Shown: positions 7,992-47,360 of the stretch, in pieces
Numbering within the stretch: position 1 is the first letter of the stretch
How the letters are laid out: the number at the start of each line of letters is the position of its first letter
Assembly: GCF_011799805.1 (NCBI RefSeq)
Contig: NZ_WXUB01000006.1
Location: 62,001-126,000, forward strand
DNA: 64,000 nucleotides
Reading direction: 5' to 3'
Source: Maribellus sediminis
GTDB lineage: Bacteria; Bacteroidota; Bacteroidia; Bacteroidales; Prolixibacteraceae
Notes under the pieces: generated by a model
Told to the model about the DNA's origin: nothing
Database searches by the model: none
Seen by the model: only the letters and a program-made list of their open reading frames with translations
Position numbers and translations under genes: made by a program

Positions 7992-8074
7992 TTCGTTTAA
8001 AATTAACCCGGAAAGTGCAGAATCAGCAGTGTGATTCCCGAAACTCAAATCCCGGAGTTCGTTCATCTAAAAAT

Positions 8075-8345: not shown

Positions 8346-8552
8346 GTAGAAAAAACTTTGTTTGAACGGCTGTATATATAGATTCGTTAAGATCAATCCT
8401 GTTTTTCTGAAAATCATACTGCCAGGCATCAAAAAATCTATAACTTATTCCCACGCTGGTACGGAGTTGTAATCGCTCTTCGGCCATAGGCTGATACTTT
8501 TATTTTCAATCGTTGTAGATTGTATGCCGATTGCAGCCCGATAAATAGATAA

Positions 8553-8663
8553 GCGCGAGGGGAATTACCCAATAAAACTTATGAGGATGGGGATGTAAAT
8601 CCTGCACCAGAAGGATTTCAGATTCGAACGTTATATAAAGGTGATAAAAAAGCAGATTCATAA
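8553..8663 (+). pseudogene. Possible relic of a 3' gene end
   Basis: A short open stretch of 36 codons without a start codon ends at a TAA (8661-8663), 11 bp before the GH30-like gene. Its predicted residues (for example TYEDGDVNPAPEGFQ) look protein-like. It could be the tail of a gene whose front was deleted, or chance. I recognise no family. Confidence 0.2.
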
Positions 8664-8674
8664 ACTAAATATTC

Positions 8675-31139: not shown

Positions 31140-31943
31140 TTATTCCGGCAGATCGTTTTCGCCTTTTACATAACCAAAGTTGGCCAAGATACCTCCGTCA
31201 ACATACAACACGTGTCCGTTTACAAAGTCGCTGGCTTTCGATGCAAGGAAAAGTGCCGCATTACCAACATCTTCAGGTTCTCCCCATCTTCCTGCCGGTG
31301 TACGAGTCATAACCAGGTCGTTGAACGGGTGACCACCTTCGCGGATTGGTGCCGTTTGCGAGGTTGCAATGTAACCCGGTCCAATTCCGTTGATTTGTAC
31401 ATTGTATTTCGCCCATTCGCAAGTCATGTTAGCCGTAAGCAGTTTTAAACCTCCTTTTGCAGCCGCATAAGCAGAAACCGAATTACGTCCGTAAACACTC
31501 ATCATCGAACACATGTTGATGATCTTTCCTGAACGTTTTGCAATCATTTTTGGAGCAACACGTTTTGAAACAATGAGCGGTGCCACCAGGTCAATATCGA
31601 TTACCTGTTTGAAATCGGCTACCGGCATATCGAGAATCGGAATGCGTTTGATGATTCCGGCATTGTTCACCAGAATATCAATATCACCAACTTCTGCCTC
31701 AATTTTCGAGATTCCGGCATCAACATCTGCTTCGTTTGTAACGTCGAATTTCAGCGTATAAACATCAATACCAAATTCAGCATATTCAGCTTTGCAGCTC
31801 TCGAGTTTTTCTTCCGAAATATCGTTCACACATATTTTAGCGCCAGCCTGGCCAAGCACTTTTCCAATGGCCATTCCAATTCCGTGAGTTCCCCCTGTAA
31901 TCAGGGCAACTTTTCCGGTAAGGTTAAATAATTCCTGTATCAT
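31140..31943 (-). CDS. kduD: KduD-like short-chain dehydrogenase
   Basis: A 267-residue short-chain dehydrogenase, probably 2-deoxy-D-gluconate 3-dehydrogenase (the enzyme that reduces 3-deoxy-D-glycero-2,5-hexodiulosonate to KDG after KduI) or the related gluconate 5-dehydrogenase. Motifs: TGGTHGIG (cofactor glycine motif, residue 16), NNAG, catalytic Ser in INMCSMMSVYG, YAAAKGG (Tyr-x3-Lys) and a complete C-terminus. Position 15 bp after kduI decides for KduD over other SDRs. Induced, by inference, through the divergent LacI repressor when pectin or glycosaminoglycan breakdown products arrive. Confidence 0.9.
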   Translation of the reverse strand: MIQELFNLTGKVALITGGTHGIGMAIGKVLGQAGAKICVNDISEEKLESCKAEYAEFGIDVYTLKFDVTNEADVDAGISKIEAEVGDIDILVNNAGIIKRIPILDMPVADFKQVIDIDLVAPLIVSKRVAPKMIAKRSGKIINMCSMMSVYGRNSVSAYAAAKGGLKLLTANMTCEWAKYNVQINGIGPGYIATSQTAPIREGGHPFNDLVMTRTPAGRWGEPEDVGNAALFLASKASDFVNGHVLYVDGGILANFGYVKGENDLPE

Positions 31944-31958
31944 AATTTTGATTTTTTA

Positions 31959-32801
31959 TTAGCGTAAATCAGTTGGAGCGATCACATCCATATCCGTGTA
32001 ATCGAGATTTTCACCTGCCATTCCCCAGATAAAAATATAGTTTGAAGTTCCGGCAGCAGAGTGGATCGACCACTCAGGCGAAATTACAGCCTGTTCGTTG
32101 GCCATCCAGATGTGACGTGTTTCGTTTGGCTGGCCCATAAAATGACAAATAGCTTGCCCTTCGGGTACGTTGAAGTAGAAATATACTTCGTTACGGCGAC
32201 TGTGCTGGTGAGGTGGCATGGTATTCCAAACGCTACCAGTTTTCAACTCCGTCATTCCCATTTGCAGCTGGCAGGTTTCAACCACACCGTTAATCAGCAA
32301 CTGGTTGATGTTACGCTCGTTTGAAGTCTCAAGCGCTCCGAGGTGCAGCACATTGGCATCGCCCATGGTTACGTGTTTTGTTGGATATGCTTTGTGAGCA
32401 GGTGCCGAATTGATGTAGAAATGCGCAGGATTTGATGCATCATCCGATTTGAACAACACTTCTTTACTTCCCTGTCCGATATAAATGGCATCTTTAAAAT
32501 CCATTTTAAATTCGGTTCCGTCAACCACGATTGAACCAGGTCCGGCAACATTGATCACTCCCACCTCGCGACGCTGACAGAAAAATTCAGCTTTTAACGG
32601 ATCGATTGCTTCCAGCGGCAAAGCCTCTTCAACCGGAACAGCACCACCAACAATGTAGCGCTCGATCGATGAATAGACCAAACGGATATTTCCGGGATCC
32701 ATTAATTTTTCTACCAAAAATTCTTTTCTTATTCGCTCAGTTCCGTACGATTTAAAATCCTCGGGATGATAAGCAAATCTTTCCTCATAAATTGTAGCCA
32801 T
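31959..32801 (-). CDS. kduI: 5-dehydro-4-deoxy-D-glucuronate isomerase
   Basis: A 280-residue cupin isomerase that converts 4-deoxy-L-threo-5-hexosulose uronate, made by polysaccharide lyases and unsaturated uronyl hydrolases, into the ketose used by KduD. The Zn2+ site is in [17 protein letters not shown] (two His and a Glu) with a further His in [22 protein letters not shown]. The N-terminal RERFLVEKLM-type stretch and full length fit KduI. First gene of the operon; its promoter shares an operator with the divergent LacI regulator. No lyase or unsaturated uronyl hydrolase gene is nearby, so the upstream enzymes must be elsewhere. Confidence 0.95.
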
Positions 32802-32884
32802 ATTATACTGTCTTTAATTGTTTTTGATTTAACTGACCTATTCAGGATCAGACAACCGCTTTCGGTTTTATAAAAGTGTTCCAA

Positions 32885-32950
32885 CAAAAATAGGAAGAAA
32901 ATCACAAAAATGCAATCGATTGCATAACTTGCGAAATATTCTTAACTTTA
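32885..32950. promoter_or_regulatory. Divergent kduI / lacI-type promoters sharing one operator
   Basis: The 16-bp palindrome ATGCAATCGATTGCAT (32910-32925) is a typical LacI-family operator. Its left half supplies TTG, 20 bases before the minus-strand -7 box TATTTTTG (32885-32892), for kduI. Its right half supplies TTG, 20 bases before the plus-strand -7-like TAACTTTA (32943-32950), for the regulator. A bound repressor would cover both -33 elements. Confidence 0.8.
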
Positions 32951-32968
32951 CCGTCAAATTAAAAGGCG

Positions 32969-33994
32969 ATGACCCAAAAACCTGAGACAACAATTCACGA
33001 TATTGCCAGGGCGCTCAACATTTCTGCATCCACCGTTTCGCGTGCCTTAAAAGATAATCCGCTGATTAGCGAGGCCACGCGAGCCAAGATCAAGAAAGCC
33101 GCGCAGGAAATGGGATATCGCCCCAATACTTTAGCTGCGAATTTCAGAACCAAAAGAACAAATACGATTGGCGTCATCGTTCCGCTGATCAACCGTCACT
33201 TTTTTTCTTCGGTGATCAGTGGAATTGAAGATATAGCCTACCAGCAGGGATTTACGGTGACCATTTCGCAGTCGAACGACGATTTTGAAAAGGAAAGTAA
33301 AATAGCACAGACCCTGTTTACCAACCGTGTTGACGGGTTGATTCTTTCAATCGGGATGAATACCACAACTTACGATCATTTAAAACTTTTTTCTGACCGG
33401 AACATTCCGCTGGTATTTTTCGACCGGGTTGTGGAAGGAATCAAAGCGCATAAAATTGTAGTCGATGATTTTGAAGGTGGTTATATTGCCGCCAAACACC
33501 TCATCGATCAGGGACGGAAAAAGATTGCAATGATTGGCGGACCGCAGAATTTGAGAATCTATCAGAACCGGCAGAAAGGCTATATGAAAGCGCTGAATGA
33601 TGGGCAAATTCCGTTTGATGAATCCATGATCATTCACAACAGTTTATCGCGCGCCGAAGGAAAATTGGCGGTAAAAAAACTACTTCAGAATCCAACACTA
33701 CCCGACGCCATTTTTTGTGCCAACGACACCACCGCACTGAGCGCTGTGCTGTTTTTAAGAGAGCTGAATATAAAAGTTCCGGAGGATATTGCCATTGTTG
33801 GCTTTAGTAACGAGCCCTTTTCGGAAGTGGTTACGCCTTCGATCACTACTTTGCAGCAACCCGGATTTGAAATGGGACAAAAGGCTGCCGAGTTGATTAT
33901 TCAGCAGATCCTGCACAAGGATAAGAATCTAAAATTTGAAACGATAAAAATGCCGATCGAACTGATCGTTCGGGAATCTTCGGTTTGCCGGTAA
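32969..33994 (+). CDS. LacI-family transcriptional regulator
   Basis: A 341-residue LacI/GalR-type repressor. The helix-turn-helix and hinge lie at residues 8-60 (TIHDIARALNISASTVSRAL), followed by the periplasmic-binding-protein-like effector domain (about 62-341), with FCANDTTALSAVLF and VPEDIAIVGFSNEPFSE typical for the family. It is divergent from kduI-kduD and separated from them by a perfect palindromic operator, so it should repress that operon and itself; the inducer is probably a uronate breakdown intermediate (inference). Leader is very short, about 12 bases. Confidence 0.93.
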   Translation: MTQKPETTIHDIARALNISASTVSRALKDNPLISEATRAKIKKAAQEMGYRPNTLAANFRTKRTNTIGVIVPLINRHFFSSVISGIEDIAYQQGFTVTISQSNDDFEKESKIAQTLFTNRVDGLILSIGMNTTTYDHLKLFSDRNIPLVFFDRVVEGIKAHKIVVDDFEGGYIAAKHLIDQGRKKIAMIGGPQNLRIYQNRQKGYMKALNDGQIPFDESMIIHNSLSRAEGKLAVKKLLQNPTLPDAIFCANDTTALSAVLFLRELNIKVPEDIAIVGFSNEPFSEVVTPSITTLQQPGFEMGQKAAELIIQQILHKDKNLKFETIKMPIELIVRESSVCR

Positions 33995-34000
33995 TCAGGA

Positions 34001-34624
34001 CTACGCCGGCATCAGTCCGCGCAAAATTACCCGGTAATGCCCCTTTACAATCCATTCTTCATCAATATTGTAAATATGCAGAATGTCCTTTCGAACCGAA
34101 AGCGTGTTCAGAATACCCAATAACTGCGACCATAAAATAGTTACCAATTCGTAGGTATCGATGTCGTCGCGCAAAGTGCCGTCACTTTTGCCTTTTTTCA
34201 AAATATCTTTTAAAATCTCCAGAACAGGCTCAACAAGCAGACTGCGTTCTCCTGTTTCCTCATCTGTAATTACAGTTTGTTCGTATTTCAACAGCAATTG
34301 CGAATAGAACGGTTTGTCTCTCAGAAATTCGACAAAAATATCGCCACTATCAGATATCTGCTCAATTCCGGTTTTTGCATCATCCAGTGAACGGTTCAAC
34401 CGCTTCCGAAGCAGGCCAACACCTTTTCCGGCAAGGGCCAGCAAAATGCTTTCCTTATTCGGAAAATACAAATACAAAGTTCCCTTCCCCAGTTCGGTAA
34501 GTTCAGCCAAATCGTCCATTGTGGCATCCATACCTTTTTTACCCGAAAATAATTTTCCGGCTGCATCGAGTATGTCTTTTCTCCGATTCTCTTTTTCCCT
34601 AAGTTTTCGTTCTTTAATTCCCAT
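34001..34624 (-). CDS. TetR/AcrR-family transcriptional regulator
   Basis: A 207-residue TetR-type repressor. The N-terminal DNA-binding domain (about residues 12-60) holds ILDAAGKLFSGKKGMDATMDDLAE and the recognition helix GKGTLYLYFPNKESIL. The C-terminal ligand domain is helical. It is divergent from the aminotransferase/kinase/aldolase cassette and is its likely regulator. A palindrome ATGAC-n5-GTCAT starts 4 bp upstream of its own start codon, and a second one (ATTCGT/ACGAAT) lies at the start of the cassette transcript. TetR ligands are usually small hydrophobic or amphipathic molecules, unusual for plain sugar catabolism. It ends 6 bp from the convergent LacI-type gene. Confidence 0.9.
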   Translation of the reverse strand: MGIKERKLREKENRRKDILDAAGKLFSGKKGMDATMDDLAELTELGKGTLYLYFPNKESILLALAGKGVGLLRKRLNRSLDDAKTGIEQISDSGDIFVEFLRDKPFYSQLLLKYEQTVITDEETGERSLLVEPVLEILKDILKKGKSDGTLRDDIDTYELVTILWSQLLGILNTLSVRKDILHIYNIDEEWIVKGHYRVILRGLMPA

Positions 34625-34628
34625 TTTT

Positions 34629-34643
34629 ATGACTTACGGTCAT
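34629..34643. promoter_or_regulatory. Candidate TetR operator
   Basis: ATGAC (34629-34633) and GTCAT (34639-34643) form an inverted repeat with a 5-base spacer, directly upstream of the TetR-type start codon. The location suggests autoregulation. Confidence 0.5.
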
Positions 34644-34735
34644 TTTACAAACTAAATTCACAAATACTTTAAAATCTCTTTTTCAATATGTTACAAAATA
34701 ACATTTTTCTCAAAAAACAAATTTAATTCAATTTA

Positions 34736-34779
34736 TTTGAAAATCAATTTATATGATTTAAATTCGTCGTAAAACGAAT
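34736..34779 (+). promoter_or_regulatory. Promoter and candidate operator of the aminotransferase-kinase-aldolase operon
   Basis: TTTG (34736-34739) is followed after about 20 bases by TAAATTCG (34759-34766), close to the Bacteroidota -33/-7 pair. The inverted repeat ATTCGT-n6-ACGAAT (34762-34779) overlaps the -7 box and the expected start site, a good place for a repressor. The ATG is at 34790. Confidence 0.55.
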
Positions 34780-34789
34780 ACCAACAAAT

Positions 34790-36256
34790 ATGGGAAACAA
34801 TTTTGCCATTTCAGAATACCACGATGTTCAGGAAATTTATACCCGGGTTGAGAAGCTCCTGGCGCTGCCCGTTTACCGGGTAAAACGAGATAAAATGCAG
34901 GAATACCTCGATCGTTTCGACAGCAATTGTGCCAAGTCGAAAGCAATGATCGACGAAGCCAAACAATATATTCCGGGTGGAGTTCAGCACAACCTCGCGT
35001 TCAACTATCCATTCCCGCTGGTATTTACCAAAGCGGAGGATGCCTGGCTCTATGATCTGGATGGCAACCGTTACATCGATTTTTTGCAGGCCGGCGGACC
35101 GACTGTACTTGGTAGCAATCCTCCTGCCATCAAAGAAAAAGTGAAAAACCTGCTGGATACCTGCGGTCCGGTTACCGGCTTGTTTCATGAATATGAAATG
35201 AAAATTGCCGAGTTTATTTGTAAACGTTATCCCGGTGTCGATAAATTCAGGATGCTTGGCAGTGGAACCGAGGGAGTAATGGCGGCCATTCGTGTTGCTC
35301 GTTTATCTACCGGAAAGAAAAAGATCATAAAACTTGGTGGCGCATATCACGGCTGGAGCGATCAAATGGTTTACGGCATGCGTATTCCCGGAACCGGGCG
35401 CTTTGAAGCCCATGGAATTCCGGCGTCTTGCTCGAAACACACCCAGGAAGCTTTTCCAAATAAAATTAAAGCCATTGAAAAACTACTCAAAAGAAATCGC
35501 TTAGTTGGTGGAACGGCTGCTGTAATTGTGGAACCGGTGGGTCCTGAAAGCGGAACACGTCCGATTGATCAAGATTACAACAAAAAAATACGGGAGCTTT
35601 GCGATAAATACGGAGCCTTGCTTATTTTTGATGAAGTGGTAACGGCTTTCAGAATTGGACTGAACGGTGCCCAGGGCTATTTTGGCGTGGTTCCCGATTT
35701 AACGGTTTTTGGTAAAGTAGTTGCCGGAGGTTATCCTTCTGCCGGAGGCTTGGGCGGACTCGATAAACACATGGATTACTTAACCGCCGGTTTGGGTGGC
35801 ACGAAAAAGAAAGCCATGGTTGGCGGAACTTTAGCGGCCAATCCCTTGAGTTCGGCCGCCGGTTATTATACTTTGGTTGAAATTGAAAAACAAAATGCCT
35901 GTGCATTTGCCGGGAAAGCCGGCGATCGGTTGACTAAAGGTCTTCAGGCTTTGATTGAAAAATACGAGCTGCCTTATGTAGCCTACAACCAGGGATCGAT
36001 CTGTCATTTGGAAACGGCGGGGACCATGTTTGTAGATGTAAACATTAAGCGACCGTGGACCATACCAAAGTCGCTGAAACAAATTAAGGTCAGGAAAAAG
36101 AACATGGAAGAAATGGGCGCGGCGTATATGGCAGAAGGGTTGGTAACACTGGCCGGAAGCCGGATGTACACAAGTATGGCCGACACCGATGAGATCATTG
36201 ACGAAGCACTGCAGCGATTTGAAAGGGTGTTTCAACACATTGAAAGATCGGAGTAA
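34790..36256 (+). CDS. Class III aminotransferase of glutamate-1-semialdehyde aminomutase type
   Basis: A 488-residue PLP enzyme of the class III aminotransferase family, closest in look to glutamate-1-semialdehyde 2,1-aminomutase but with about 50 extra N-terminal residues. Motifs: LDGNRYIDFLQAGGP, LGSGTEGVMAAIRVARLSTG (PLP phosphate), KLGGAYHGWSDQ, LLIFDEVVTAFRIG (Asp contacting the pyridine N), and Schiff-base Lys in FGKVVAGGYPSAGG (K309). No heme-pathway genes are near; it heads an operon with an FGGY kinase (30 bp later) and a class II aldolase. It may move an amino group on a sugar-derived aldehyde or release it from an amino sugar or amino alcohol. The substrate is unknown. Confidence 0.85.
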   Translation: MGNNFAISEYHDVQEIYTRVEKLLALPVYRVKRDKMQEYLDRFDSNCAKSKAMIDEAKQYIPGGVQHNLAFNYPFPLVFTKAEDAWLYDLDGNRYIDFLQAGGPTVLGSNPPAIKEKVKNLLDTCGPVTGLFHEYEMKIAEFICKRYPGVDKFRMLGSGTEGVMAAIRVARLSTGKKKIIKLGGAYHGWSDQMVYGMRIPGTGRFEAHGIPASCSKHTQEAFPNKIKAIEKLLKRNRLVGGTAAVIVEPVGPESGTRPIDQDYNKKIRELCDKYGALLIFDEVVTAFRIGLNGAQGYFGVVPDLTVFGKVVAGGYPSAGGLGGLDKHMDYLTAGLGGTKKKAMVGGTLAANPLSSAAGYYTLVEIEKQNACAFAGKAGDRLTKGLQALIEKYELPYVAYNQGSICHLETAGTMFVDVNIKRPWTIPKSLKQIKVRKKNMEEMGAAYMAEGLVTLAGSRMYTSMADTDEIIDEALQRFERVFQHIERSE

Positions 36257-36286
36257 TTTTCAAATCACGATATAGAATAACAACGA

Positions 36287-37822
36287 ATGGCAACAGAAAT
36301 TGTAATCGCACATGATGTAGGAACCAGCGGAGTGAAATCGGCGCTTGTAAACAGCAAGGGCGAGATAATTTGCCACGCAACACATCCCTACCCCATGTTT
36401 ACGCCACAACCCGGTTGGGTGGAGCAGGATCCGCTAGATTACTGGAATGCGATTGTTGCCAATACCAAAATCTTATTAAAAGCTACTAATCCCGATGAAA
36501 TTGCCGGTTTGGTTTTTACCACCCAGTCGATGGGAATTATTCCGGTTGATGAAATTGGCACAGTTCTGCGCCGAAATATTACCTGGGTTGACGGCCGTGC
36601 CGAAGAACAGGCCCGCTGGCTGATGAACCTTTTTGGTGGCCGGACGGCATTCAAATCCTTTTTGGGTATCGAGATTACCGGAAAAGATGTGATTCCAAAG
36701 TTGCGCTGGCTAAAACAAAACGAGCCGGACATTTATAGCAAAACGTACAAAGTCCTCGATGTGAACGGCTACCTCAGATTTAAAGCCACCGGAAATATGG
36801 CTGCTGAATGGTCGGGCGCAAGTTCGTGGGGATTCAATGTAAAAAAGAAAGACTGGGAACACCTGTTTTTTATGGCTGCCGGTTTCGACCGTCAAAAATT
36901 GCCGGAACTGATCCGCTCAACCGACATTGCCGGTGCACTCACAAAAGAAGCAGCAAAAGAAATGGGATTGAACCAAGGAATTCCGGTATTTGGTGGCTGC
37001 GACGATTCGCAAAGTGCCGCTGTTGGAGCCGGTTGTGTTGCTGAAGGATCGGTTTTTGCCTACCTCGGCACTGCGGCTCAACTGGGCGTAACCACAGCAA
37101 AAGCAGTAAAATTCAAAAATGGTGCAGCTTGTATTCAGGGGGCCGATCCGAAAATGAACCTGCTGATAGGCGTAACCGAAACGGCCGGTAATAATGTGGA
37201 ATGGCTCATTCAGAATTTCTACAAAAAGGAACTCGAGGAATTCGGGAAAGAAAAGATGTACGAACTACTCACAGAAGAGGTGAAAGTTGTTCAGGCAGGT
37301 GCAGATGAACTGATCTTTACGCCCTGGTTTCTTGGAGAACGTTGCCCGGTAAGCACCACCACCACCCGCGGAACAATGTTCAACCTTGGAATGGAACACA
37401 CCCGCGGACACATTGCCCGGGCTTTGTTCGAAGGAATCGGCTACAACCTGCGCTGGATAATTGAGAACTATGAAAAAGATTTCAGGCTGAACATTCCCGA
37501 ATTTCGCTTTATTGGCGGCGGTTCGCAGAACAAAACCTGGATGCAGGCAGTTGCCGACATCACAGGAAGAAAGATCATTACCACCAATTATCCCACCATG
37601 GCGGGTGCGCTTGGAGCGGCGATGTGTGCATTTGTTGGTGCCGGAATCTATGCCGATTTCTCGGAAATCGACCGAATCGTCATAACAAAAGAAACCTTTC
37701 TGCCAAATGCTGAAAACAAAGCTACGTACGACAAGCTGTTCGTGAATTACAAAAATGTATACCGAAGTCTGAAAGCTACGTACCACAAAGCAAATTACGA
37801 TCGGTTTAATACTGCAAACTGA
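36287..37822 (+). CDS. FGGY-family carbohydrate kinase (xylulokinase-like)
   Basis: A 511-residue sugar kinase of the FGGY family, which phosphorylates a ketose or polyol with ATP. The N-terminal actin-like domain starts with IAHDVGTSGVKSALVNSKG (phosphate 1 loop) and contains the substrate stretch ITWVDGRAEEQ near residue 100. The C-terminal domain has GCDDSQSAAVGAG with the catalytic Asp (near residue 242), FLGERCPV and FIGGGSQNKTW (ATP site). It resembles xylulokinases most, but substrate specificity in FGGY kinases cannot be read from motifs. Middle gene of the TetR-controlled cassette; its product should feed the aldolase that follows. Confidence 0.9.
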   Translation: MATEIVIAHDVGTSGVKSALVNSKGEIICHATHPYPMFTPQPGWVEQDPLDYWNAIVANTKILLKATNPDEIAGLVFTTQSMGIIPVDEIGTVLRRNITWVDGRAEEQARWLMNLFGGRTAFKSFLGIEITGKDVIPKLRWLKQNEPDIYSKTYKVLDVNGYLRFKATGNMAAEWSGASSWGFNVKKKDWEHLFFMAAGFDRQKLPELIRSTDIAGALTKEAAKEMGLNQGIPVFGGCDDSQSAAVGAGCVAEGSVFAYLGTAAQLGVTTAKAVKFKNGAACIQGADPKMNLLIGVTETAGNNVEWLIQNFYKKELEEFGKEKMYELLTEEVKVVQAGADELIFTPWFLGERCPVSTTTTRGTMFNLGMEHTRGHIARALFEGIGYNLRWIIENYEKDFRLNIPEFRFIGGGSQNKTWMQAVADITGRKIITTNYPTMAGALGAAMCAFVGAGIYADFSEIDRIVITKETFLPNAENKATYDKLFVNYKNVYRSLKATYHKANYDRFNTAN

Positions 37823-37886
37823 ACATTAGCACATCGGTAAACACCCGATTATTTTCGAAATCAATAAAACAAATTCAATACAAAAA

Positions 37887-38555
37887 ATGCAATTACACTA
37901 TCAACAAGAACGGGAAGCACTGGTACAGGCAGGATTGAAACTGGTGGAACAGGGGCTGGTTGCTCGCACCTGGGGCAATATCAGTGTGAAGTTAAATGAG
38001 GAAGAAATGCTGATAACTCCAAGCGGTAAATTTTACGAAGACCTCACTCCCGCTGATATGGTAATTATCAAATTCAAAACGAATGATTACGATAAAACAG
38101 GAATAAAACCGTCGTCGGAGTTTAAACTGCATTCGGGAATTTATAACGACAGGAAAGAATTCAGTGCCATTATTCACACCCACCAAATGAATGCTTCAAC
38201 CTGCGCTGCAGCCCGCGTTGAGGTTCCTGCAGTTTTGGACGACCTTGCTCAAATAGTGGGTCCATCGGTGCGTTGCGCCGACTATGCACTGCCATCAACT
38301 AAAAAAATTGTTCGCGAAACAGTAAAGGCCATGCGTGGTAGAAACGCAGCTTTAATGGCGAATCACGGAGCGGTTTGTGCCGGTCGCGACCTCGACGAAG
38401 CTTTTGCAGTGTGCCAGGTACTCGAAAAAGGGTGCAAAGCATTTATTGAAGCACAGTTTCTGGGCGGTGCAAAACACATCAGTAAATTTGAGGCCTGGGC
38501 TATGCACCAGGTTTACCTGAAGAAGTATTCGAAAATAGCCAAAAAGAAAAAGTGA
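37887..38555 (+). CDS. Class II aldolase/adducin-family protein
   Basis: A 222-residue zinc aldolase or epimerase of the fuculose-1-phosphate aldolase/ribulose-5-phosphate 4-epimerase family. Motifs: ARTWGNISVK, ITPSGKFYEDL (phosphate site), catalytic Glu in KPSSEFKLH, zinc ligands in IIHTHQMNAS and ANHGAVCAG. It ends in a Lys-rich tail. With the preceding kinase it suggests phosphorylation of a ketose and cleavage to dihydroxyacetone phosphate plus an aldehyde. The aminotransferase encoded first in the operon could then act on that aldehyde, or prepare the substrate (inference). Last gene before a bidirectional terminator. Confidence 0.88.
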   Translation: MQLHYQQEREALVQAGLKLVEQGLVARTWGNISVKLNEEEMLITPSGKFYEDLTPADMVIIKFKTNDYDKTGIKPSSEFKLHSGIYNDRKEFSAIIHTHQMNASTCAAARVEVPAVLDDLAQIVGPSVRCADYALPSTKKIVRETVKAMRGRNAALMANHGAVCAGRDLDEAFAVCQVLEKGCKAFIEAQFLGGAKHISKFEAWAMHQVYLKKYSKIAKKKK

Positions 38556-38592
38556 ATTTTTCTCACACATTCTAACCGCATAACGAAAAACG

Positions 38593-38626
38593 AAAAAGCA
38601 GGTCATTTTCATGACCTGCTTTTTTG
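38593..38626. terminator. Bidirectional intrinsic terminator between convergent operons
   Basis: AAAAAGCAGGTCAT and ATGACCTGCTTTTT form a perfect 14-bp stem with a 4-base loop. It is placed between the aldolase gene (plus) and the GH5 gene (minus) and should serve both. Confidence 0.93.
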
Positions 38627-38657: not shown

Positions 38658-40280
38658 TCAGCTTTTGTTAATAGTAAATTCTTTCCCCGAGGTTAAATGT
38701 ATTTTAAAGCGCAAAGTGCGTTTCATTGGCTTTCCCAAAGGCGATACCAATAATCTGCCTCCGCCCGAATCTTCGCAATGTTCAAACACGATCTGGTCGG
38801 CTGCAGGGCTGGTTGCAATGTCCTCTTCGGTTAAATTCGACAACACCGGAACATAGATAACACTCGGCTCCTGCTCCTTACCGCTTTCTTCCCAAACAAA
38901 GGTAAACTCCCCTGTTTCGAAGTTATAATCGTAAAAGTCGAGCTTGCCCGAAATGCGTTGCGGATAAGGTCGAACTATCGCCTGCTGAAAAAACGGATAT
39001 TCGTCGATATTACCGTAATACGCCCAGAAAGTATTACTGAACTTGTGAGCTTCAATAATGCCAACCAGGTGTTGGGCGGTTTCCACCATTTTATCCGACT
39101 TGCTGTGAAGTGCTCCCCACTCGCCCAGCAAAACGGGCATATTCATTCTTTTGCCGCTTTCAGCCACCCGGTCGAAAATAAATTCTACACGCTCGCGGCT
39201 TTGGTTCTCATTCTCTTTGGTATCTACCACCAAATCGTAACCATGAGCGCCGTAAGCCACCTGCGGGTCGCGACTTCCATCGGGTAATTTTGTGGCTTCA
39301 AGCGCTGTTGAAACACCGGTATTCACAAAGTAATTGTGATTATAGATCAGGATGTGGTGCATATCCACTTCGCGGATCGCATCAGCTACTTTTTGATAAA
39401 AAGGCTGAAGTTTATTCTTTTCGAAAGCTGCGCTCACTTCGTAAACGGCATCCACTACTTTCGAATACCTGTCGCGGGTTGAAATCATATTCAAAGCCTC
39501 CATCCGGGAAGCTTCACTTCCCCACATGGCAGCCAGTTCTTCTACCGAAGGAGGCGCTTGGCCGGTTACTTCAACGTAAACCTGTGCATAGGCACCGAGC
39601 ATCATAGGCAGTACATTTTGCGCCTCGCTACCCATAAATGGCTCGTTCATTACATCGTAACCAATTACGGTTGCATTTTTGGAATAACGTTCAGCAATCA
39701 GCTTCCACAAATTAGCGTAATGGTCCTGCAAGCCAATTCCATCGGGAGCCGGAGCATTGTTCCAGAAATTATCGAAAGCAGTTTGAACGGCCGGACTGAT
39801 CAGGTAAGAATCACTCCAGACTTCGCCCTTGTAATGCGGCTGATCGTTGGTGATGGTGGCCCAATCGGGTGCACCGTCCGAAAATTGGGCGCCATACAAA
39901 TCCTGGTGCATATCGAGAAAAACATACAGATCGTTTTTCTCGGCCCATTTTATTCGCTTATCAATTTCCTGCAGATAAGCCTCGTTGTATTTGCCGGGTT
40001 CCGGTTCCAATCCGTCCCAGATAATTCCCAGACGAATACAATTGAATCCCCAGGCTTTAAATTGTTTAAAGGTTTCCTCACCTTGTGCCGGCATGTATTT
40101 TTCTGACGGTTCCTTGCTGATAAAATTAATTCCGCTGAGAATCACTTCGCGCCCTTCAGCATCAACAAAATTTTGCCCTTCAACCTTCAGAAACTCATTG
40201 GATGAATCCTTTGGATTTCCGGGATTGCAGGAATAAACGAAAAACAGGATGATCAGAAAAACTGAGTATCGTACTATCAT
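38658..40280 (-). CDS. GH5-family lipoprotein, endoglycoceramidase-like
   Basis: A 540-residue lipoprotein glycosidase. The signal ends in VYSC, so Cys18 is lipidated and the enzyme is membrane-anchored, probably at the cell surface. The GH5 TIM barrel spans about residues 35-430: GFNCIRLGIIWDGLEP, FLDMHQDLYG, acid/base Glu in DVMNEPF (E213) and nucleophile Glu in LLGEWGA (E387). A beta-sandwich follows (about 435-540). The barrel insertions and the DMHQD segment resemble endoglycoceramidases, which release glycans from glycosphingolipids, but related GH5 enzymes cut beta-glucans. It follows the PKD lipoprotein of the SusCD locus, separated by a terminator, so it is associated with that locus but may have its own promoter. 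Confidence 0.85.
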   Translation of the reverse strand: MIVRYSVFLIILFFVYSCNPGNPKDSSNEFLKVEGQNFVDAEGREVILSGINFISKEPSEKYMPAQGEETFKQFKAWGFNCIRLGIIWDGLEPEPGKYNEAYLQEIDKRIKWAEKNDLYVFLDMHQDLYGAQFSDGAPDWATITNDQPHYKGEVWSDSYLISPAVQTAFDNFWNNAPAPDGIGLQDHYANLWKLIAERYSKNATVIGYDVMNEPFMGSEAQNVLPMMLGAYAQVYVEVTGQAPPSVEELAAMWGSEASRMEALNMISTRDRYSKVVDAVYEVSAAFEKNKLQPFYQKVADAIREVDMHHILIYNHNYFVNTGVSTALEATKLPDGSRDPQVAYGAHGYDLVVDTKENENQSRERVEFIFDRVAESGKRMNMPVLLGEWGALHSKSDKMVETAQHLVGIIEAHKFSNTFWAYYGNIDEYPFFQQAIVRPYPQRISGKLDFYDYNFETGEFTFVWEESGKEQEPSVIYVPVLSNLTEEDIATSPAADQIVFEHCEDSGGGRLLVSPLGKPMKRTLRFKIHLTSGKEFTINKS

Positions 40281-41386: not shown

Positions 41387-42880
41387 TTAATTTCTCACAT
41401 CCCACCAAAGTGGTGTTGTTATTTCATCCGGTCCTTGTTCGTTAAGGGCATCCAAATAATTTTTATTATTGATGTTTACTTCCGAGGCCGGGTAACGGCA
41501 GCGTGTTGGCAGTTTACCTTCAGTAACACCAAGATCGAAAGCAGGTGCAGTACGTCTTGGCAAGATCGGATAACCAGTCCGGCGAATATTCGTCCAGCCT
41601 TCCATGGTATTCGGCAACACCGAGATCCACAGTTGCGTGCTGATCTGCCTGAATTGCTCTTCGCGGCTTCCACTCAATGTTGCTACCGGGTTACTTGCCA
41701 CGTAATCCTGAGCAACGCTGTCGACTACTCCCCACTGTGTCATCGATTTTTGAATAGCGGTTTGGTACATAGTGTTGGCATCGCCATCGGTTATTCCAAA
41801 CAAGGCAGCTTCGGCGCGTAACAGCCAGACTTCGGCAGCCGACATGTAATAAATTGAAGCAGCTTTCCCAACCAGTTTCTCCCCTGGATCAGAAACTTCA
41901 GACATTTTCCATTTCGAAAGTTCGGTATCGCTCAACCCGTTGGGTAAACCCACATAATTTCCCTGCTCGTTGGGCTTGGCAAATTCGAACAAACGCGGAT
42001 CGCCGTTTGCATCCAGCAAATCAACCAGGAATTCACTCATTTTCCATTTCCAGTATCCGTAGTGTATGAAAATCGGGTTTCTGAATTCGTCGATATCCGA
42101 ATCCTGGTTTTTATTTTCCACGTTCTGATCGTTCTCTTCAATCAGCGGCAAAGCCATACATTCTTTGATAATTCCGTTCGCGGTATTTTCATCGGCAAAA
42201 CGAATGCGCATGGCCAAACGTAAACGCAGCGAATTGGCAAATCGGGCCCATTTATCCAAATCGTTATTGTAAAACGGATCGGCACCGGGATAGCCCATAG
42301 CTGCATCTGCTGAACTTAGAATCGGAACAACGTTTCCTAATTTTTGAAGTGCATCTTTATAAATATCCTCCACTGAATCGAATTTGGGATAGAGATAACC
42401 TTCCTGTCCCACACCTCCATCGGAATAAGGAATACTGCCAAAGGCATCGGCTAGCTGAACAAAATTCATGACTGACACCACCTCGGCCATTGCATGGCGC
42501 ACCTCGTTTTCGTTTTCTCCTCCAGGCTCCGTCATACGCAACACTTCCTGTATGTGACGAATCGGGCCGTAATAGAAGGTTTTAAACAGGTAATCGTATT
42601 CGTGATTGGTAAAATTATCGTAATAGCGATCGATGTAAATCGTTGTGCTTTGACCGCAATAAACATGTGCATACTGCGATGCAAAAGGGAACTGTACCTG
42701 TTTATTGTTATCGCCGCGTAGTGTCAGTAATACTGCGTTGGCAAATAAGTATTCGTCATTAATTTCGGTTACCGCGTTCGGGTTCGTATTTATTTCTTCA
42801 AATTTATCATCACAACCAAAGGTAAATCCTATCAAAAGAATAAGAAGAACCCATGCTTTATTTAATTTCATCGTTTTCAT
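41387..42880 (-). CDS. SusD/RagB-family nutrient-binding lipoprotein
   Basis: A 497-residue SusD-like outer-membrane lipoprotein, the lid of the SusC transporter. The signal ends in GFTFGC (Cys near residue 23), followed by DDKFEEINTNPNAVT, typical of the SusD_2 branch. TPR-like helices with YGPIRHIQEVLRM, VMNFVQLADAFGSIPYSDG and WARFANSLRLRLAMRI are characteristic. The C-terminal part includes STQLWISVLPNTMEGWTNIRRTGYP. It lies 11 bp after susC. An ATG at 42871 is an equally good start and would remove three residues. Confidence 0.93.
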   Translation of the reverse strand: MKTMKLNKAWVLLILLIGFTFGCDDKFEEINTNPNAVTEINDEYLFANAVLLTLRGDNNKQVQFPFASQYAHVYCGQSTTIYIDRYYDNFTNHEYDYLFKTFYYGPIRHIQEVLRMTEPGGENENEVRHAMAEVVSVMNFVQLADAFGSIPYSDGGVGQEGYLYPKFDSVEDIYKDALQKLGNVVPILSSADAAMGYPGADPFYNNDLDKWARFANSLRLRLAMRIRFADENTANGIIKECMALPLIEENDQNVENKNQDSDIDEFRNPIFIHYGYWKWKMSEFLVDLLDANGDPRLFEFAKPNEQGNYVGLPNGLSDTELSKWKMSEVSDPGEKLVGKAASIYYMSAAEVWLLRAEAALFGITDGDANTMYQTAIQKSMTQWGVVDSVAQDYVASNPVATLSGSREEQFRQISTQLWISVLPNTMEGWTNIRRTGYPILPRRTAPAFDLGVTEGKLPTRCRYPASEVNINNKNYLDALNEQGPDEITTPLWWDVRN

Positions 42881-42891
42881 TTTTGTAGCGG

Positions 42892-45800
42892 TTAAAAGTT
42901 GATTTTCAGGTTTGCACCATAGCTCGAAGTCGAAGGCAACGAAAAGTGCTCAATTCCGTTTCCGGTGTTTCCGCTGCTGTACCCCGATTCAGGATCGAAA
43001 TGATCCATCGCACGGTACAGGAAGAACAAGTTCCTTCCAACCAACGAAACATTCACATTTTCGAAAGGCAATTTGGTGAGTAATTTAGAAGGCAGTTTGT
43101 AGCCAAGTACCAATTCGCGCATTCTTACATTAGTAGCGTCCTGTACCCATTCGGCGCCAATTTGCTTGTTGTAAATATTGTACCAGCGTAACGTCGGATC
43201 AACAGCAATGGCATTAGGCTGACCATTTACTTCACTCACGCCTTTTTCAACAAAACCTCCTGTTCCTGCAATCCATTCGGCGCGCCCTTCAAGGGTTTCC
43301 TTACTTGTTCCGAACAAAGCCATATAAGCCTTTCCCCAGGAATAAATATCCCCTCCCATCTGAACGTCGATCAGGAAACTCAGACTAAGATTTTTATACT
43401 TCAACTGGTTGGTAATACCACCAATCCAGTCGGGATTGATATTGCCCATGGCTTTCCAGTCGCCTGCAATTGCAAAGCCGTTTTTATCGATCAGTTTATT
43501 ACCAAAAGCATCGTATTTGTAATCGGTGGTATAAATCTCGCCATAAGGACGGCCGGCATGTGCCTGGATACTCATATGAAATTCCTCAGCCAGTGGCAGG
43601 TATTCCATGTCGCCATACAATTCTTTAACTTCCGACTGGTTTTTCGACCAGGTAAGAATTACATCCCAGCTAAAACCATCCGGCGTTGAAACCGGATTGG
43701 CATTTAACTGTACCTCAAAACCGGTGTTCTGAATTTTTCCGGCATTCATTTTCTTCGTCTCATAACCCGTTGAAGGAGTCAGATCGACGCTCATGATCTG
43801 ATTATCTGACATACTGTTGTAGTAGGTAAGATCAAGCACCAGGCGGTTTTCGAGAAAACCGAGATTGGTTCCCACTTCCCACGATGCTGTTTGTTCGGGT
43901 TGCAGGTCGAAATGTGGCAACTGCCCTCCTATCGATGCCAGCGGATAATCAGTCTGGGTTTGAGAAATGCTGTAATACTGTGCTATTTCGTAGGCTCCGG
44001 TATCGTTACCAACCTTGGCGTACGAAGCACGAAGTTTTCCAATGTTCAGCCAATCCCAATTCAATTTGAAAGCCTCGGTAAACAAAAAGCTAAGGTTTTC
44101 GGAATGATAGAAGTAAGAATTATTTTGCAGTGGAAGTGTCGACGACCAGTCGTTACGCGCAGTTACATCGAGATATAGGAAGTTCTGATACGAGAACGAA
44201 CCGAGTAAATACAGTGAATAAACCGATTTTTCGGAAAACCATTCGCCGGTACTGTAATTCTGGTAATTCGAAATATGGTACAAACCAGGAACCCGCATCA
44301 CACTTCCCGACTGCGAAATAGAGCTGTATTTGTTGTAACGGTAATTTCCGCCAAGACTAAAATTCAGGCTCACCTGATCGAACGATTTGTTGTAATTAGC
44401 CAGGAAATCGGAGTTCCATTCCAAACTGTTACTCATTCCGTTTCCAACATTACCCTGCCCGGTTGCAACTGAAGGCTTTCCGGGATTTTCATGAGATCTT
44501 GAATGTGAATTGGTCAAATCCATTCCCGAACGAACCATAACATTAAAACTCTTACTCATGTTCCATTTCGTTGAAAACATCGCCTGTAAACGGTTCTTTT
44601 CGTCTTCGTTGTATTTGTTGTTCAGAATCCAGTACGGGTTTGGGAAAGTATTGTCAGTGTTCCATTTCAGCATATTCCCAGCGGCATCAGCAGTATTGTC
44701 TTTTAACGACTGAAGCGATATATTTCGGGGTAAAAGACCGATGGATTGAACGACATTTGCACCATCTTCAGCTAAATACGGACGGTTCTCAACTTTCGAA
44801 TGGACGTAAGTCATCTTAGAATCGAATTCAATGTTCTCGCCCAGTTTTGAGAAACCACGCAAATTTACTGTTTGCCGCAACAGGTTGTTATTCGGCATAA
44901 TGCCTTTCGAATCCTGGTTCGTGAGCGATGCATGGAAAGTGGTTGTTTCGTTCCCACCGTCTAACGCAATGGTATTCGAAAACGAACTTCCGGTTCTGAA
45001 AAATTCATCGTAAGGATTTTTCTGCGTACTCATCACTTCTTCCTGACCAATCCAGTTCACCCGTGTTTGTCCTTCAATTTTTTCGCCATAACTCCATATC
45101 CAGGGATAGTCAGGAATCGGTCGTGCCGGGTTTCCGGTTAGTTGCGGATATTGTCCGAAAGCTCCCTGCGTATAATCGTACTGAAAATCGGGAGTCACCA
45201 TTGGATTTTCCATCGTATAACCTGAAGAAATGGAGATTCCGATTCCTTTTTTGTTCTTTCCTCGCTTTGTTGTGATGAGTATTACGCCGTTGGCTCCTCG
45301 CGAACCATAAGCTGCTGCTGCACCTGCACCTTTCAAAACACTCATCGATTCGATGTCTTCGGGATTCAAATCGGCCAAAGCATCGCCACTGTCGCTTCCT
45401 CCCCAGCGACCTCCGCCGCCGTAACCGGCATCCATCGGAATACCATCGATTACAAATAACGGTCGGTTGTTACCCAGCATCGATGCAACGCCCCGCAAAA
45501 CCACCCGCGATGATCCATCAACACCGGTTGGTGCTTTAGTAATCTGTAAGCCTGAAACTTTTCCGGCCAGCGAGTTGATCGGATTGTTTTCCTTGGCCTG
45601 GTTAATGTCGTCGCTGCCAACCTGGGTTATGGAATATCCCAGCGAGTTCTTATTTCGTTCGATACTTAAGGCAGTAACCACAACCTCATCGATCGATTGC
45701 ACATCTTCATTAAGTACAACATCCAGGTTTGTTTTGCCATTCAGCGCTACATCCTGACTTTGAAAACCAATAAATGAAAACGTTAGTATGGCATAATTGT

Positions 45801-46242
45801 CAGGGACTTCAATGGTATAATTCCCATCAAAATCGGTAATCACACCTTGGGTTGTGCCCTTTATAACGACGTTTACGCCGGGTAAACCATCGGGCTCGTT
45901 TACCGAAGTAACTTTACCGCGAATGATCGATTGCTGTTGCGTTTCAGAATCGGGAACCACCACAATCAACTTTTCTTCCATCACCCGGAATTTAAGATTC
46001 GTTTGTTCCTGCAACTTATCGATGATGTCCTGTATATCGGCATCTCGCACGTCAATAGAAATAAGATTATCCAGATCCACCAGGTCGTCGTTATAAAAAA
46101 AGCGGTACCCGCTTTCTTCCTGAATGGTGTTAAAAACACTCTTCAGGGGTTTATTTTCAACCTTAAGTGAAATGTTGTCTTGAGCAAAGACAGATAGCGT
46201 TGCCGAAAAAAATATGGCAATCAGAAAGAGTTTAAAATTCAT
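42892..46242 (-). CDS. SusC/RagA TonB-linked outer-membrane protein with STN domain
   Basis: A 1116-residue TonB-dependent glycan importer. After the signal peptide (ending SVFAQ) comes an STN domain (about residues 25-95: KVENKPLKSVFNTIQEESGY), a carboxypeptidase-like beta domain (about 105-190), the plug with GVASMLGNNRPLFVIDGIPMD and IESMSVLKGAGAAAAYGSRGANG, and the large beta-barrel ending in LKINF. The STN domain is the part that talks to FecR anti-sigma proteins, and FecR is encoded directly upstream (20 bp). The ATG at 46242 is used; the frame extends to a TTG at 46266 that overlaps the fecR stop. Confidence 0.96.
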   Translation of the reverse strand: MNFKLFLIAIFFSATLSVFAQDNISLKVENKPLKSVFNTIQEESGYRFFYNDDLVDLDNLISIDVRDADIQDIIDKLQEQTNLKFRVMEEKLIVVVPDSETQQQSIIRGKVTSVNEPDGLPGVNVVIKGTTQGVITDFDGNYTIEVPDNYAILTFSFIGFQSQDVALNGKTNLDVVLNEDVQSIDEVVVTALSIERNKNSLGYSITQVGSDDINQAKENNPINSLAGKVSGLQITKAPTGVDGSSRVVLRGVASMLGNNRPLFVIDGIPMDAGYGGGGRWGGSDSGDALADLNPEDIESMSVLKGAGAAAAYGSRGANGVILITTKRGKNKKGIGISISSGYTMENPMVTPDFQYDYTQGAFGQYPQLTGNPARPIPDYPWIWSYGEKIEGQTRVNWIGQEEVMSTQKNPYDEFFRTGSSFSNTIALDGGNETTTFHASLTNQDSKGIMPNNNLLRQTVNLRGFSKLGENIEFDSKMTYVHSKVENRPYLAEDGANVVQSIGLLPRNISLQSLKDNTADAAGNMLKWNTDNTFPNPYWILNNKYNEDEKNRLQAMFSTKWNMSKSFNVMVRSGMDLTNSHSRSHENPGKPSVATGQGNVGNGMSNSLEWNSDFLANYNKSFDQVSLNFSLGGNYRYNKYSSISQSGSVMRVPGLYHISNYQNYSTGEWFSEKSVYSLYLLGSFSYQNFLYLDVTARNDWSSTLPLQNNSYFYHSENLSFLFTEAFKLNWDWLNIGKLRASYAKVGNDTGAYEIAQYYSISQTQTDYPLASIGGQLPHFDLQPEQTASWEVGTNLGFLENRLVLDLTYYNSMSDNQIMSVDLTPSTGYETKKMNAGKIQNTGFEVQLNANPVSTPDGFSWDVILTWSKNQSEVKELYGDMEYLPLAEEFHMSIQAHAGRPYGEIYTTDYKYDAFGNKLIDKNGFAIAGDWKAMGNINPDWIGGITNQLKYKNLSLSFLIDVQMGGDIYSWGKAYMALFGTSKETLEGRAEWIAGTGGFVEKGVSEVNGQPNAIAVDPTLRWYNIYNKQIGAEWVQDATNVRMRELVLGYKLPSKLLTKLPFENVNVSLVGRNLFFLYRAMDHFDPESGYSSGNTGNGIEHFSLPSTSSYGANLKINF

Positions 46243-46262
46243 AAATTTTAAAAGTTTAGTAT

Positions 46263-47360
46263 TCAATTGTTAGCTTGTTTTAGCCAGATGTCGCGATCCT
46301 CGATTTCGTAGTCGATTTGTGCGGCGATGCGTATAGCCTCCATAACCTGCTCCACGGTTTCGTTTTCGAGCGATCCGGTAAATTTCAGGTTCTTGAGCGC
46401 TTCATCCCGGAAGTGGATCTTCACGTCGTATTTCCGTTCCAGCTTCACTGCAAGTCGTTCGAGTGTTTCGCTGGAAATGAAAAGCGTTCCGTCTTTCCAT
46501 GAAGTAAAATTGTGAGGATCTATTCCTTTTGAAATCAAATAGGTTAGCTTTTGTTCGGGGCGTTCAATTGCCTCAACCGGATTTTCTGTTTCGTCGTTTT
46601 CGGAAGTAACTTCAGGAATTTCCGGCATTTTACGATAGTAAACTACCCGTTGGTTGGGCTCCATCACCACTTCGTCGCTCTTCCTGTTTTCCAGTTCTTT
46701 TCGGGTTACCCCGATCTTTCCTTCGAGCAAGGTGGTTTCAATGGTATTTTCTTCGGGATACGATTTTACATTAAAAACGGTACCGTATGCCTTTACATCA
46801 ATTTCGGATGTTCGTACAATAAAAACCTTCGACGGATTGGTTTCCACATCAAAAAAAGCTTCACCTTCCAATTCAACAATACGGTTTTTAGCGCCGTATT
46901 CGCTCGAATATTTTATGTGACTTTTTGCATTCAGCCAAACGTTGGTCCCATCGGGTAAGGTGATTTGCGATTTTGCCCCGGCCGGAGTGGTAATTTCCTG
47001 GTAAGTGATTTGCTGATTGGGCCGGATCAGCAAAAGATAGGAAACAAAGAACGACATCACAGCTCCCAAAAGGAATACAGCTGCAATTCTGCTGATCCAG
47101 TAATAAGGACTTCGAATTGTTCGTTGTTTTACAAGCGGTGCCGATTCAATTTTACGGCACAATTCTTTCCACTCCAGTTCCAATTCGCGGTTATCGAGTT
47201 TTCCTGCCATCATCGACATGTTCCACAACCTGCGGAATTCGTTAAAATTGCGTATCGATTCCGGATTCCTTTTTAACCAATCCAGTAGAAATTGCTCATC
47301 TTCCGGCGAGATCCTTCCTTCGAGGTAGGCCAGAAACAAGGTTTCAATTTTTTTACCCAT
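46263..47360 (-). CDS. FecR-family anti-sigma factor
   Basis: A 365-residue inner-membrane anti-sigma factor that receives the signal from the SusC STN domain and releases its sigma factor. The cytoplasmic N-terminal part (about 1-75: FLAYLEGRISPEDEQFLLDWL) is followed by a transmembrane helix (about residues 87-110), then the FecR domain (about 120-230: ITTPAGAKSQITLPDGTNVW and EGEAFFDV) and the C-terminal DUF4974-like domain (about 290-365). I start at the ATG at 47360; the frame is open for 30 more codons but these are not FecR-like. The ECF sigma gene ends 121 bp upstream. Confidence 0.94.
   Translation of the reverse strand: MGKKIETLFLAYLEGRISPEDEQFLLDWLKRNPESIRNFNEFRRLWNMSMMAGKLDNRELELEWKELCRKIESAPLVKQRTIRSPYYWISRIAAVFLLGAVMSFFVSYLLLIRPNQQITYQEITTPAGAKSQITLPDGTNVWLNAKSHIKYSSEYGAKNRIVELEGEAFFDVETNPSKVFIVRTSEIDVKAYGTVFNVKSYPEENTIETTLLEGKIGVTRKELENRKSDEVVMEPNQRVVYYRKMPEIPEVTSENDETENPVEAIERPEQKLTYLISKGIDPHNFTSWKDGTLFISSETLERLAVKLERKYDVKIHFRDEALKNLKFTGSLENETVEQVMEAIRIAAQIDYEIEDRDIWLKQANN

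Follow-up and report, generated by a model that had tools for sequence, protein, structure and literature searches.

The window analysed here, a stretch of 64,000 nucleotides from Maribellus sediminis (contig NZ_WXUB01000006.1, positions 62,001 to 126,000), contains an operon coding for a class III pyridoxal phosphate (PLP)-dependent aminotransferase (AT), an FGGY carbohydrate kinase and a class II aldolase of the L-fuculose-phosphate type, divergent from the gene of a TetR-family repressor. Judging from its enzymes and from the genes that surround its relatives, this module probably serves the degradation of a sphingoid base. With somewhat less confidence, we propose that the base is phytosphingosine and that it is broken down along a ketose-aldol route, each enzymatic step of which we infer. 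A long-chain sphingoid base is suggested because endoglycoceramidase, neutral ceramidase, genes resembling the Pseudomonas sphingosine regulon and dehydrogenases of the fatty aldehyde type all occur in the genomic context. We also lean, a little more cautiously, towards regarding the module as an undescribed phytosphingosine pathway of several phyla, in which, for most sampled lineages outside the group of the window, the aldolase would now work only as a pair of a catalytic and a degenerate partner.

The initial annotation of this DNA knew no named pathway with this set of genes. Indeed, no description of the gene set, or of a bacterial transamination route for phytosphingosine, was found in the open-access literature other than bioRxiv. 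We file as new the substrate, the entry by way of an aminotransferase and the split aldolase; the enzyme families and the kinase-aldolase logic are already familiar from fucose and 5-deoxyribose.

Proposed pathway

Phytosphingosine, a 2-amino-1,3,4-triol, would be handled as an amino-alditol. The AT is proposed to transfer the amine from C2 to a keto acid, leaving 1,3,4-trihydroxyalkan-2-one, a long-chain ketose. Since a ketone in place of the amine turns such a triol into a ketose, the product would be a substrate for an FGGY kinase, phosphorylating O1, and for a fuculose-phosphate-type aldolase. The latter, a Zn-dependent enzyme, would split the C3-C4 bond, to judge from its family and conserved residues, and yield dihydroxyacetone phosphate (DHAP) and a long-chain aldehyde, C15 in the case of a C18 base. 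Finally, an ALDH3-type fatty aldehyde dehydrogenase, encoded next to the module in some relatives, may oxidize this aldehyde to a fatty acid. Upstream of these steps, the endoglycoceramidase-like GH5 protein and the SusCD pair encoded next door could strip the glycan off glycosphingolipids, while TetR would repress the operon at the palindrome ATGAC-N5-GTCAT until an amphipathic ligand arrives. Formation of DHAP and an aldehyde by the kinase and the aldolase had been put forward in the initial annotation and is right or likely right. The amino sugar that it suggested as substrate is given up here, as the context suggests that the AT would make the ketose from a long-chain sphingoid base.

The configuration of the substrate was compared by computation, on the basis of SMILES strings that we take to describe phytosphingosine and L-fuculose correctly. 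With its amine replaced, (2S,3S,4R)-phytosphingosine becomes a ketone of (3R,4R) configuration, as found at C3/C4 of L-fuculose. For the fuculose-phosphate aldolase FucA, products of (3R,4R) configuration have been reported (PMC11274987).

An aminotransferase apart from HemL

The window AT has an Aminotran_3 domain (183.7 bits, Pfam) and an intact class III PLP site, with K309 and D281 present in all 40 full-length rows of its family and in 47/47 other rows. Its nearest characterized family is HemL, glutamate-1-semialdehyde aminomutase (33-40% identity), from which it differs in its separate clade and in the absence of the HemL-diagnostic residues. These residues were counted in the 40 full-length AT-family rows and in 47 HemL-type rows, as which L055 and L057-L102 (33-39% identity) were treated; the partial sequence L054 was left out of both tree and counts. 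The arginine of the SPVR motif, present in 47/47 HemL-type rows, and the glutamate of the C-terminal FE motif (46/47) are deleted in 40/40 AT-family rows, and a glycine stands in all 40 where 46/47 HemL-type rows have a tryptophan. In HemL, the SPVR arginine binds the substrate carboxylate. Arg458 is invariant across the 40 AT-family rows. A tree of 87 rows separates the AT family from all other rows by one branch, which has support 100.

On the HemL model TIGR00713, the window AT reaches 270.5 bits, below the cut-off of 527.3, and a true HemL scoring 608.1 bits is encoded elsewhere in the genome (L003). Therefore, the AT is not the hemL of this genome; that it might be the only one was a possibility that had been raised as a check on the initial annotation; given the score, the missing diagnostic residues, the separate clade and the presence of L003, a HemL role was rejected. 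The extra N-terminal region noticed in that annotation is real, because HemL homology starts only at residue 47-49; it comprises about 46 residues and is kept in the seven close relatives aligned. Solved relatives of the AT include 6hbs (E 1.8e-21), an aminopentol aminotransferase acting on the sphingoid-like backbone of a toxin.

Kinase and aldolase

Both sugar-type enzymes fall short of the models of known relatives. The FGGY kinase scores 333.4 against a xylulokinase cut-off of 380.25, and the aldolase 88.3 bits against the 400.25 of the L-fuculose-phosphate aldolase model TIGR01086. All motifs of the fuculose-phosphate type (GN, PSG, SSE, HTH and NHG) are nevertheless present in the window aldolase, which has 6btd and 6btg among its best solved relatives. 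Ordinary use of fucose or rhamnose was rejected as the main role, in view of scores far below cut-off and of an aminotransferase that would have no place in it; an isomerase was not searched for. By alignment, the motif LDD.AQ lies at the position of Tyr113 in FucA numbering, so that the window enzyme has Asp-Asp where FucA has a tyrosine; its C-terminus reads VYLKKYSK.

Among 51 loci examined, nine (ten if L053 is included) have the D[DE] motif in the catalytic chain itself, and 37 (38 if L047 is included) have it in a partner domain or partner gene. These two loci had initially been scored as devoid of the motif and both carry it, L047 in the partner and L053 in the same chain (as TDEQV); L035 had been scored as a partner case through a false match in another gene, yet Asp-Asp is present in its partner domain by alignment. 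In the same survey, an aldolase is absent from L027 and L031, and L029 gave no match. The partner domains have lost most or all catalytic residues and have retained D[DE]. In 14 aligned two-domain aldolases, DD.AQ and two C-terminal tyrosines are invariant in the partner domain, and in L046 (2015-2794) the partner is cut down to a tail of about 60 residues, fused to the catalytic half, in which only YLDDYAQ and VYKKKYAK remain. The two-domain aldolase of L033 was modelled with a predicted local distance difference test (pLDDT) score of 91.5 and a predicted template modelling score of 0.90, and its best structural match is FucA of E. coli.

FucA active sites are described as being built from two adjacent subunits (PMC11274987), and a complementary loss in the split aldolase is suggested for that reason. 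We read the pair as one half that may have kept the metal and phosphate site, and another that may have kept the elements reaching over from the neighbouring subunit. In L030 (10001-20933), AT and two-domain aldolase are present twice, about 8.2 kb apart and with equal identity to the window, which may be a tandem copy or an effect of assembly.

Endoglycoceramidase and other sphingolipid genes

The GH5 protein encoded next to the operon had been taken as a clue in the initial annotation, and is probably a sound one. It consists of a GH5 catalytic domain and a GH5 C-terminal domain (PF18564), and among solved structures it comes closest to endoglycoceramidase II (2osw, 133.1 bits); on the NCBIfam model of endoglycoceramidase I it scores 128.9 against a cut-off of 700. 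Among 140 genomes of the family of the window, 17 have such a GH5 protein (E <=1e-20), including 8/8 that are AT-positive as against 9/132 that are AT-negative (Fisher p 8e-9). The gene is on the contig of the AT and within about 12 kb of it in 4/8, adjacent in the window and 10-12 kb away in the other three; in the remaining 4/8, whose assemblies count 190-810 contigs, it is on another contig. In a sample over the phylum, endoglycoceramidase occurs in 2/395 genomes. More distantly, it was found (E 1e-10) in 9/32 AT-positive genomes, and in 6/20 of those titled clostridial, Tissierellia or unplaced Firmicutes. A clostridial class sample has it in 0/3 further AT-positive and in 1/241 AT-negative genomes; for 6/20 and 0/3 versus 1/241, p is 1.5e-6, of which we retain the contrast and not the p-value, as the two samples were drawn differently and relatives are not independent.

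In some Pseudomonadaceae, the module is found in the company of other sphingolipid genes. According to published descriptions, the sphingosine-induced SphR regulon of P. aeruginosa comprises an AraC regulator, the porin SphA, the cytochrome c SphB, the oxidase SphC exported by twin-arginine translocation, the PLP-dependent, threonine-aldolase-like SphD and the neutral ceramidase CerN (PMC3900636, PMC11893366). A single stretch of Pseudomonas alcaligenes (L038) contains genes for neutral ceramidase, DUF1329, DUF1302, TetR, FGGY, ALD1, AT and ALD2, and furthermore for an AraC regulator with Arabinose_bd, an Ala_racemase_N protein, an FAD/ALO oxidase and a cytochrome c. Its ceramidase matches both Pfam domains (PF04734, 603 bits, and PF17048), and has 2zws as its best solved relative (586 bits). 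Over 14 Pseudomonadaceae loci, the SphR-like AraC gene was counted in five, the SphBCD-like trio of Ala_racemase_N, FAD/ALO and cytochrome c in four and DUF1302/DUF1329 in seven. Full-length neutral ceramidase is also encoded in the AT-positive genomes G158 (Arcanobacterium ihumii) and G171.

Aldehyde dehydrogenases adjoin the aldolase or are fused to it in three phyla. All belong to one broad group. Those of L019, L021 and L022 adjoin the module, as does a fragment at the contig end of L020; in Emergencia timonensis (L040) the enzyme is fused to the aldolase (Aldolase_II and Aldedh), and 6/13 further Pseudomonadaceae loci have one downstream of the module. The best solved relatives of the L022 dehydrogenase are 6k0z, an aldehyde dehydrogenase (446 bits), and then 4qgk, a fatty aldehyde dehydrogenase (421 bits). 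In the window, no aldehyde dehydrogenase adjoins the operon. Some modules also come with a GtrA-type membrane protein, over cut-off in L041 and just under it in L046, where it is fused to FGGY; the other GtrA-type companions were recognized by clustering only. Together with the TetR-type regulators, this membrane protein fits an amphipathic substrate, and the amphipathic inducer of the initial annotation seems right or likely right.

Two kinds of secreted protein were met among these neighbours. One, a family of about 785 residues and without Pfam match, lies near the module in L020, L021 and L022 (for example L022 12619-14973), beside GH30_2 and GH92-like genes. The other, of 1262 residues and with hardly any Pfam match, has its gene immediately ahead of that of the AT in two Clostridia (L045 6163-9948 and L051 6139-9927).

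Alternative explanations

The alternative that survives best, which we nevertheless hold to be unlikely, retains a sphingoid base as substrate and changes the chemistry or the preference: the AT would also deaminate sphinganine or sphingosine, the aldolase-family proteins would do something else than a plain retro-aldol cleavage, such as dehydrate or isomerize, and the module would mainly serve the detoxification of these antimicrobial bases. The same sphingolipid context speaks for it. Furthermore, the class II aldolase family includes epimerases and dehydratases (AraD and MtnB models are among the matches), some loci have no FGGY in the stretch, and sphingoid bases are reported to inhibit bacteria (PMC11893366). 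However, an FGGY kinase together with a motif-complete fuculose-type aldolase fits aldol cleavage best, and both the stereochemical match of the 4-hydroxylated base and the fusion of aldolase and aldehyde dehydrogenase favour that reaction.

Catabolism of a short-chain amino sugar or amino-alditol, with the endoglycoceramidase as a chance neighbour, appears improbable. FGGY kinases and fuculose aldolases do act on sugars, and sugar transporters (MFS_2) and one GH1 are found near some loci (L045, L028), but the endoglycoceramidase linkage in two unrelated groups, the neutral ceramidase and SphBCD/SphR-like genes in Pseudomonadaceae, the ALDH3-type dehydrogenases and the GtrA-type membrane protein all speak against it. 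Slightly less credible still is another long-chain vicinal amino alcohol or amino-polyol lipid: most genomic hints indicate an amphipathic amine in general, and the solved relatives of the AT include the aminopentol aminotransferase 6hbs, whereas endoglycoceramidase and neutral ceramidase are sphingolipid enzymes and no other lipid-specific gene recurs. Least credible of all is an operon working in reverse, from DHAP and a fatty aldehyde over ketose phosphate and ketose to a sphingoid-like base without serine palmitoyltransferase, for although all enzyme families save the kinase are formally reversible and a role of the GtrA-type protein in lipid export is conceivable, the reverse of the kinase reaction is uphill, degradative hydrolases and an aldehyde dehydrogenase are encoded nearby, and control by TetR suits substrate induction.

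Several observations weigh against the degradation of phytosphingosine by a ketose-aldol route itself, or temper it. As to the chemistry, sphinganine and sphingosine would not be cleaved in this way, because they have no 4-hydroxyl as needed for a retro-aldol reaction; according to published work, phytosphingosine, sphinganine and sphingosine are all acted on by SphBC. The AraC gene and the trio of L038 are likened to SphR and SphBCD by domain make-up and published description. For the L022 dehydrogenase, the nearest NCBIfam model is the benzaldehyde dehydrogenase MdlD, below cut-off, and the predicted structure of the AT, made from a 10-row alignment, has a pLDDT of 48 and was set aside. As to the genes, FGGY was not found by profile search in 11/40 AT loci, at least three of which end at the AT. 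Endoglycoceramidase was not found in 23/32 distant AT-positive genomes, and the distant stretches that have it do not overlap with the AT loci; the Fisher values are too small, because related genomes are not independent. Neutral ceramidase stands beside the module in only 2/14 Pseudomonadaceae loci, and in the family of the window, where PF04734 matches are mostly partial, it is not associated with the AT (4/8 versus 63/132, p 1.0), for which reason it was rejected as a sphingolipid link in that family. No PF04734 ceramidase was found in the genome of the window, so that the amide-cleaving step is missing in this organism.

TetR and its probable operator

Relatives of the window TetR (44-72% identity) lie beside the module in L016, L017 and L019. 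Two candidate operators had been proposed in the initial annotation, and one of them stands: the palindrome ATGAC-N5-GTCAT, kept in 4/4 loci examined with a window-type TetR (the window and these three), is the probable TetR operator as predicted from sequence conservation. In L019 it is situated between tetR and the aldehyde dehydrogenase gene heading that operon. The palindrome ATTCGT-N6-ACGAAT near 34762 was dropped, as it is not kept in L016 or L017. The genome of 5.6 Mb contains one ATGAC-N5-GTCAT site and two sites of the reversed control pattern; for this reason conservation, and not the genome count, is taken as the evidence for the operator. A TetR regulon reaching the endoglycoceramidase was rejected, since an exact copy of the operator occurs nowhere else in the genome. 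A second TetR cluster is present in ten loci (confirmed by Pfam for L028 and L039), and TetR-type genes also occur in L031, L038, L040, L161, L163 and L167.

Distribution and co-conservation

Genomes were scanned with the AT and the best 80 matches were kept. Among these, 33 loci have AT relatives at 57-71% identity (L023-L054 and L056), the next being at 33-39%; with seven loci from the window's own family (74-84% identity), they make up the set of 40. Their origins include Fidelibacterota, Hydrogenedentes, Chloroflexota, Bacillota, Spirochaetota, Actinomycetota, Pseudomonadota and one Thorarchaeote; the SusC and SusD genes of the window point to Bacteroidota for its own genome. By profile search, the aldolase is present in 35/40 and FGGY in 29/40, and at least one of the two in 36/40, which bears out the co-conservation on which the initial annotation had made its proposal depend. 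In the four loci with neither partner, the contig ends at the AT in three (L017, L027 and L054); in the fourth, the Thorarchaeote contig L031 (5981-8003), the AT adjoins a TetR gene and the stretch has neither kinase nor aldolase. The sole aldolase of L029 is about 8 kb from the AT and may not belong to the module. Within Pseudomonadaceae, the AT was found in 14/228 genomes, and the full core occurs in 14/14 loci, in the order FGGY-ALD1-AT-ALD2. Over the phylum, the AT was found in 1/395 genomes sampled, that of the window itself, in a first pass that scored at most four candidates per genome and may miss some.

L056 has a second, different class III aminotransferase gene (7673-9169, 281 bits) just upstream of aldolase and AT; FGGY was not found in this stretch, and the same genome codes for a full-length neutral ceramidase.

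Relation to known systems

In the sphingosine-1-phosphate lyase route, sphingosine kinase and a PLP-dependent lyase lead to phosphoethanolamine and a long-chain aldehyde, which is oxidized by an ALDH3-type enzyme. Here, too, a sphingoid base ends up as a long-chain aldehyde and a phosphorylated head, but the amine stays in phosphoethanolamine, whereas the proposed route would remove the amine first and release the head as DHAP. The catabolism of L-fucose and L-rhamnose shares the FGGY kinase, the fuculose-phosphate-type aldolase and the products DHAP and aldehyde, as well as the (3R,4R) configuration in the case of the fucose enzyme; it has an isomerase in the position where the window operon has the AT, and the context of the window is that of sphingolipids, not fucose. 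The DrdK-DrdI-DrdA system for 5-deoxyribose disposal (PMC6079011) also consists of three genes with a FucA-type aldolase as the last, forms DHAP and an aldehyde and occurs in several phyla. However, its kinase is from a different family, it includes an isomerase but lacks an aminotransferase, and its substrate is a sugar. As for the Pseudomonas SphR regulon, a ceramidase, an AraC gene and a SphBCD-like trio adjoin the module in some Pseudomonadaceae, while neither an aminotransferase nor an FGGY kinase nor a class II aldolase is mentioned in the accessible published accounts of the regulon (PMC3900636, PMC11893366). For SphBC, the best studied genes in the bacterial degradation of sphingoid bases, the product is not known in published work (PMC11893366).

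If the proposal is true, it would describe a new microbial way of eating common plant and animal lipids. Phytosphingosine is common in plants and fungi. Its presence in ceramides of the digestive tract and skin has been reported (PMC10140171). The gene set could be used as a marker for its breakdown, so that one could read from genomes how sphingolipids are turned over in the gut, the rumen, the skin and the sea, and odd-chain fatty acids would arise in bacteria by this route. In the split aldolase, one would have a plain example of duplicated active-site halves that have each lost what the other retains.

Operon layout and flanking genes

The arrangement read in the initial annotation, an operon of AT, kinase and aldolase closed by a terminator and divergent from tetR, is confirmed by the open reading frames (ORFs), the domain matches and the terminal hairpin (Table 1). 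The gaps between the three genes are 30 and 64 bases, as calculated from the coordinates. Terminator-like sites in this region are at chance level as a class (9 found versus 8.6 in shuffles), as are promoter-like sites (9 versus 10.7); the stem of this hairpin is the longest among those listed. A locus comprising SusC, SusD, a lipoprotein and the GH5 protein is convergent to the operon.

Table 1. Features of the AT operon and its surroundings, in coordinates of the window
Feature	Position	Strand	Remarks
TetR-family repressor	34001-34624	-	207 aa; TetR_N 44.2 bits; divergent from operon
Probable TetR operator (predicted), palindrome ATGAC-N5-GTCAT	34629-34643		kept in 4/4 loci with window-type TetR
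Class III PLP aminotransferase (AT)	34790-36256	+	488 aa; Aminotran_3; proposed sphingoid-base 2-aminotransferase
FGGY carbohydrate kinase	36287-37822	+	511 aa; FGGY_N and FGGY_C; proposed long-chain ketose kinase (O1)
Class II (L-fuculose-phosphate-type) aldolase	37887-38555	+	222 aa; Aldolase_II 165.7 bits; all catalytic motifs and LDD.AQ, single chain
Terminator between convergent operons	38593-38624		14-pair hairpin, then T-run; structure listing
GH5 endoglycoceramidase-like lipoprotein	38658-40280	-	proposed ceramide-releasing functional neighbour; domains and nearest solved structure
SusD-like protein	41387-42880	-	same glycan-utilization locus as GH5; sequence; relatives in L019 and L020 loci
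SusC-like TonB-dependent transporter	42892-46266	-	same locus as GH5; sequence; relative in L019

On its other side, the AT operon locus is adjoined by genes (31140-33994) for KduI (over cut-off), a short-chain dehydrogenase/reductase resembling KduD or gluconate-5-dehydrogenase and a LacI regulator. This is apparently an ordinary locus for the use of uronates, separate from the AT operon. Finally, a large glycosidase-like ORF, GH95-like by eye, lies at 61099-63558.

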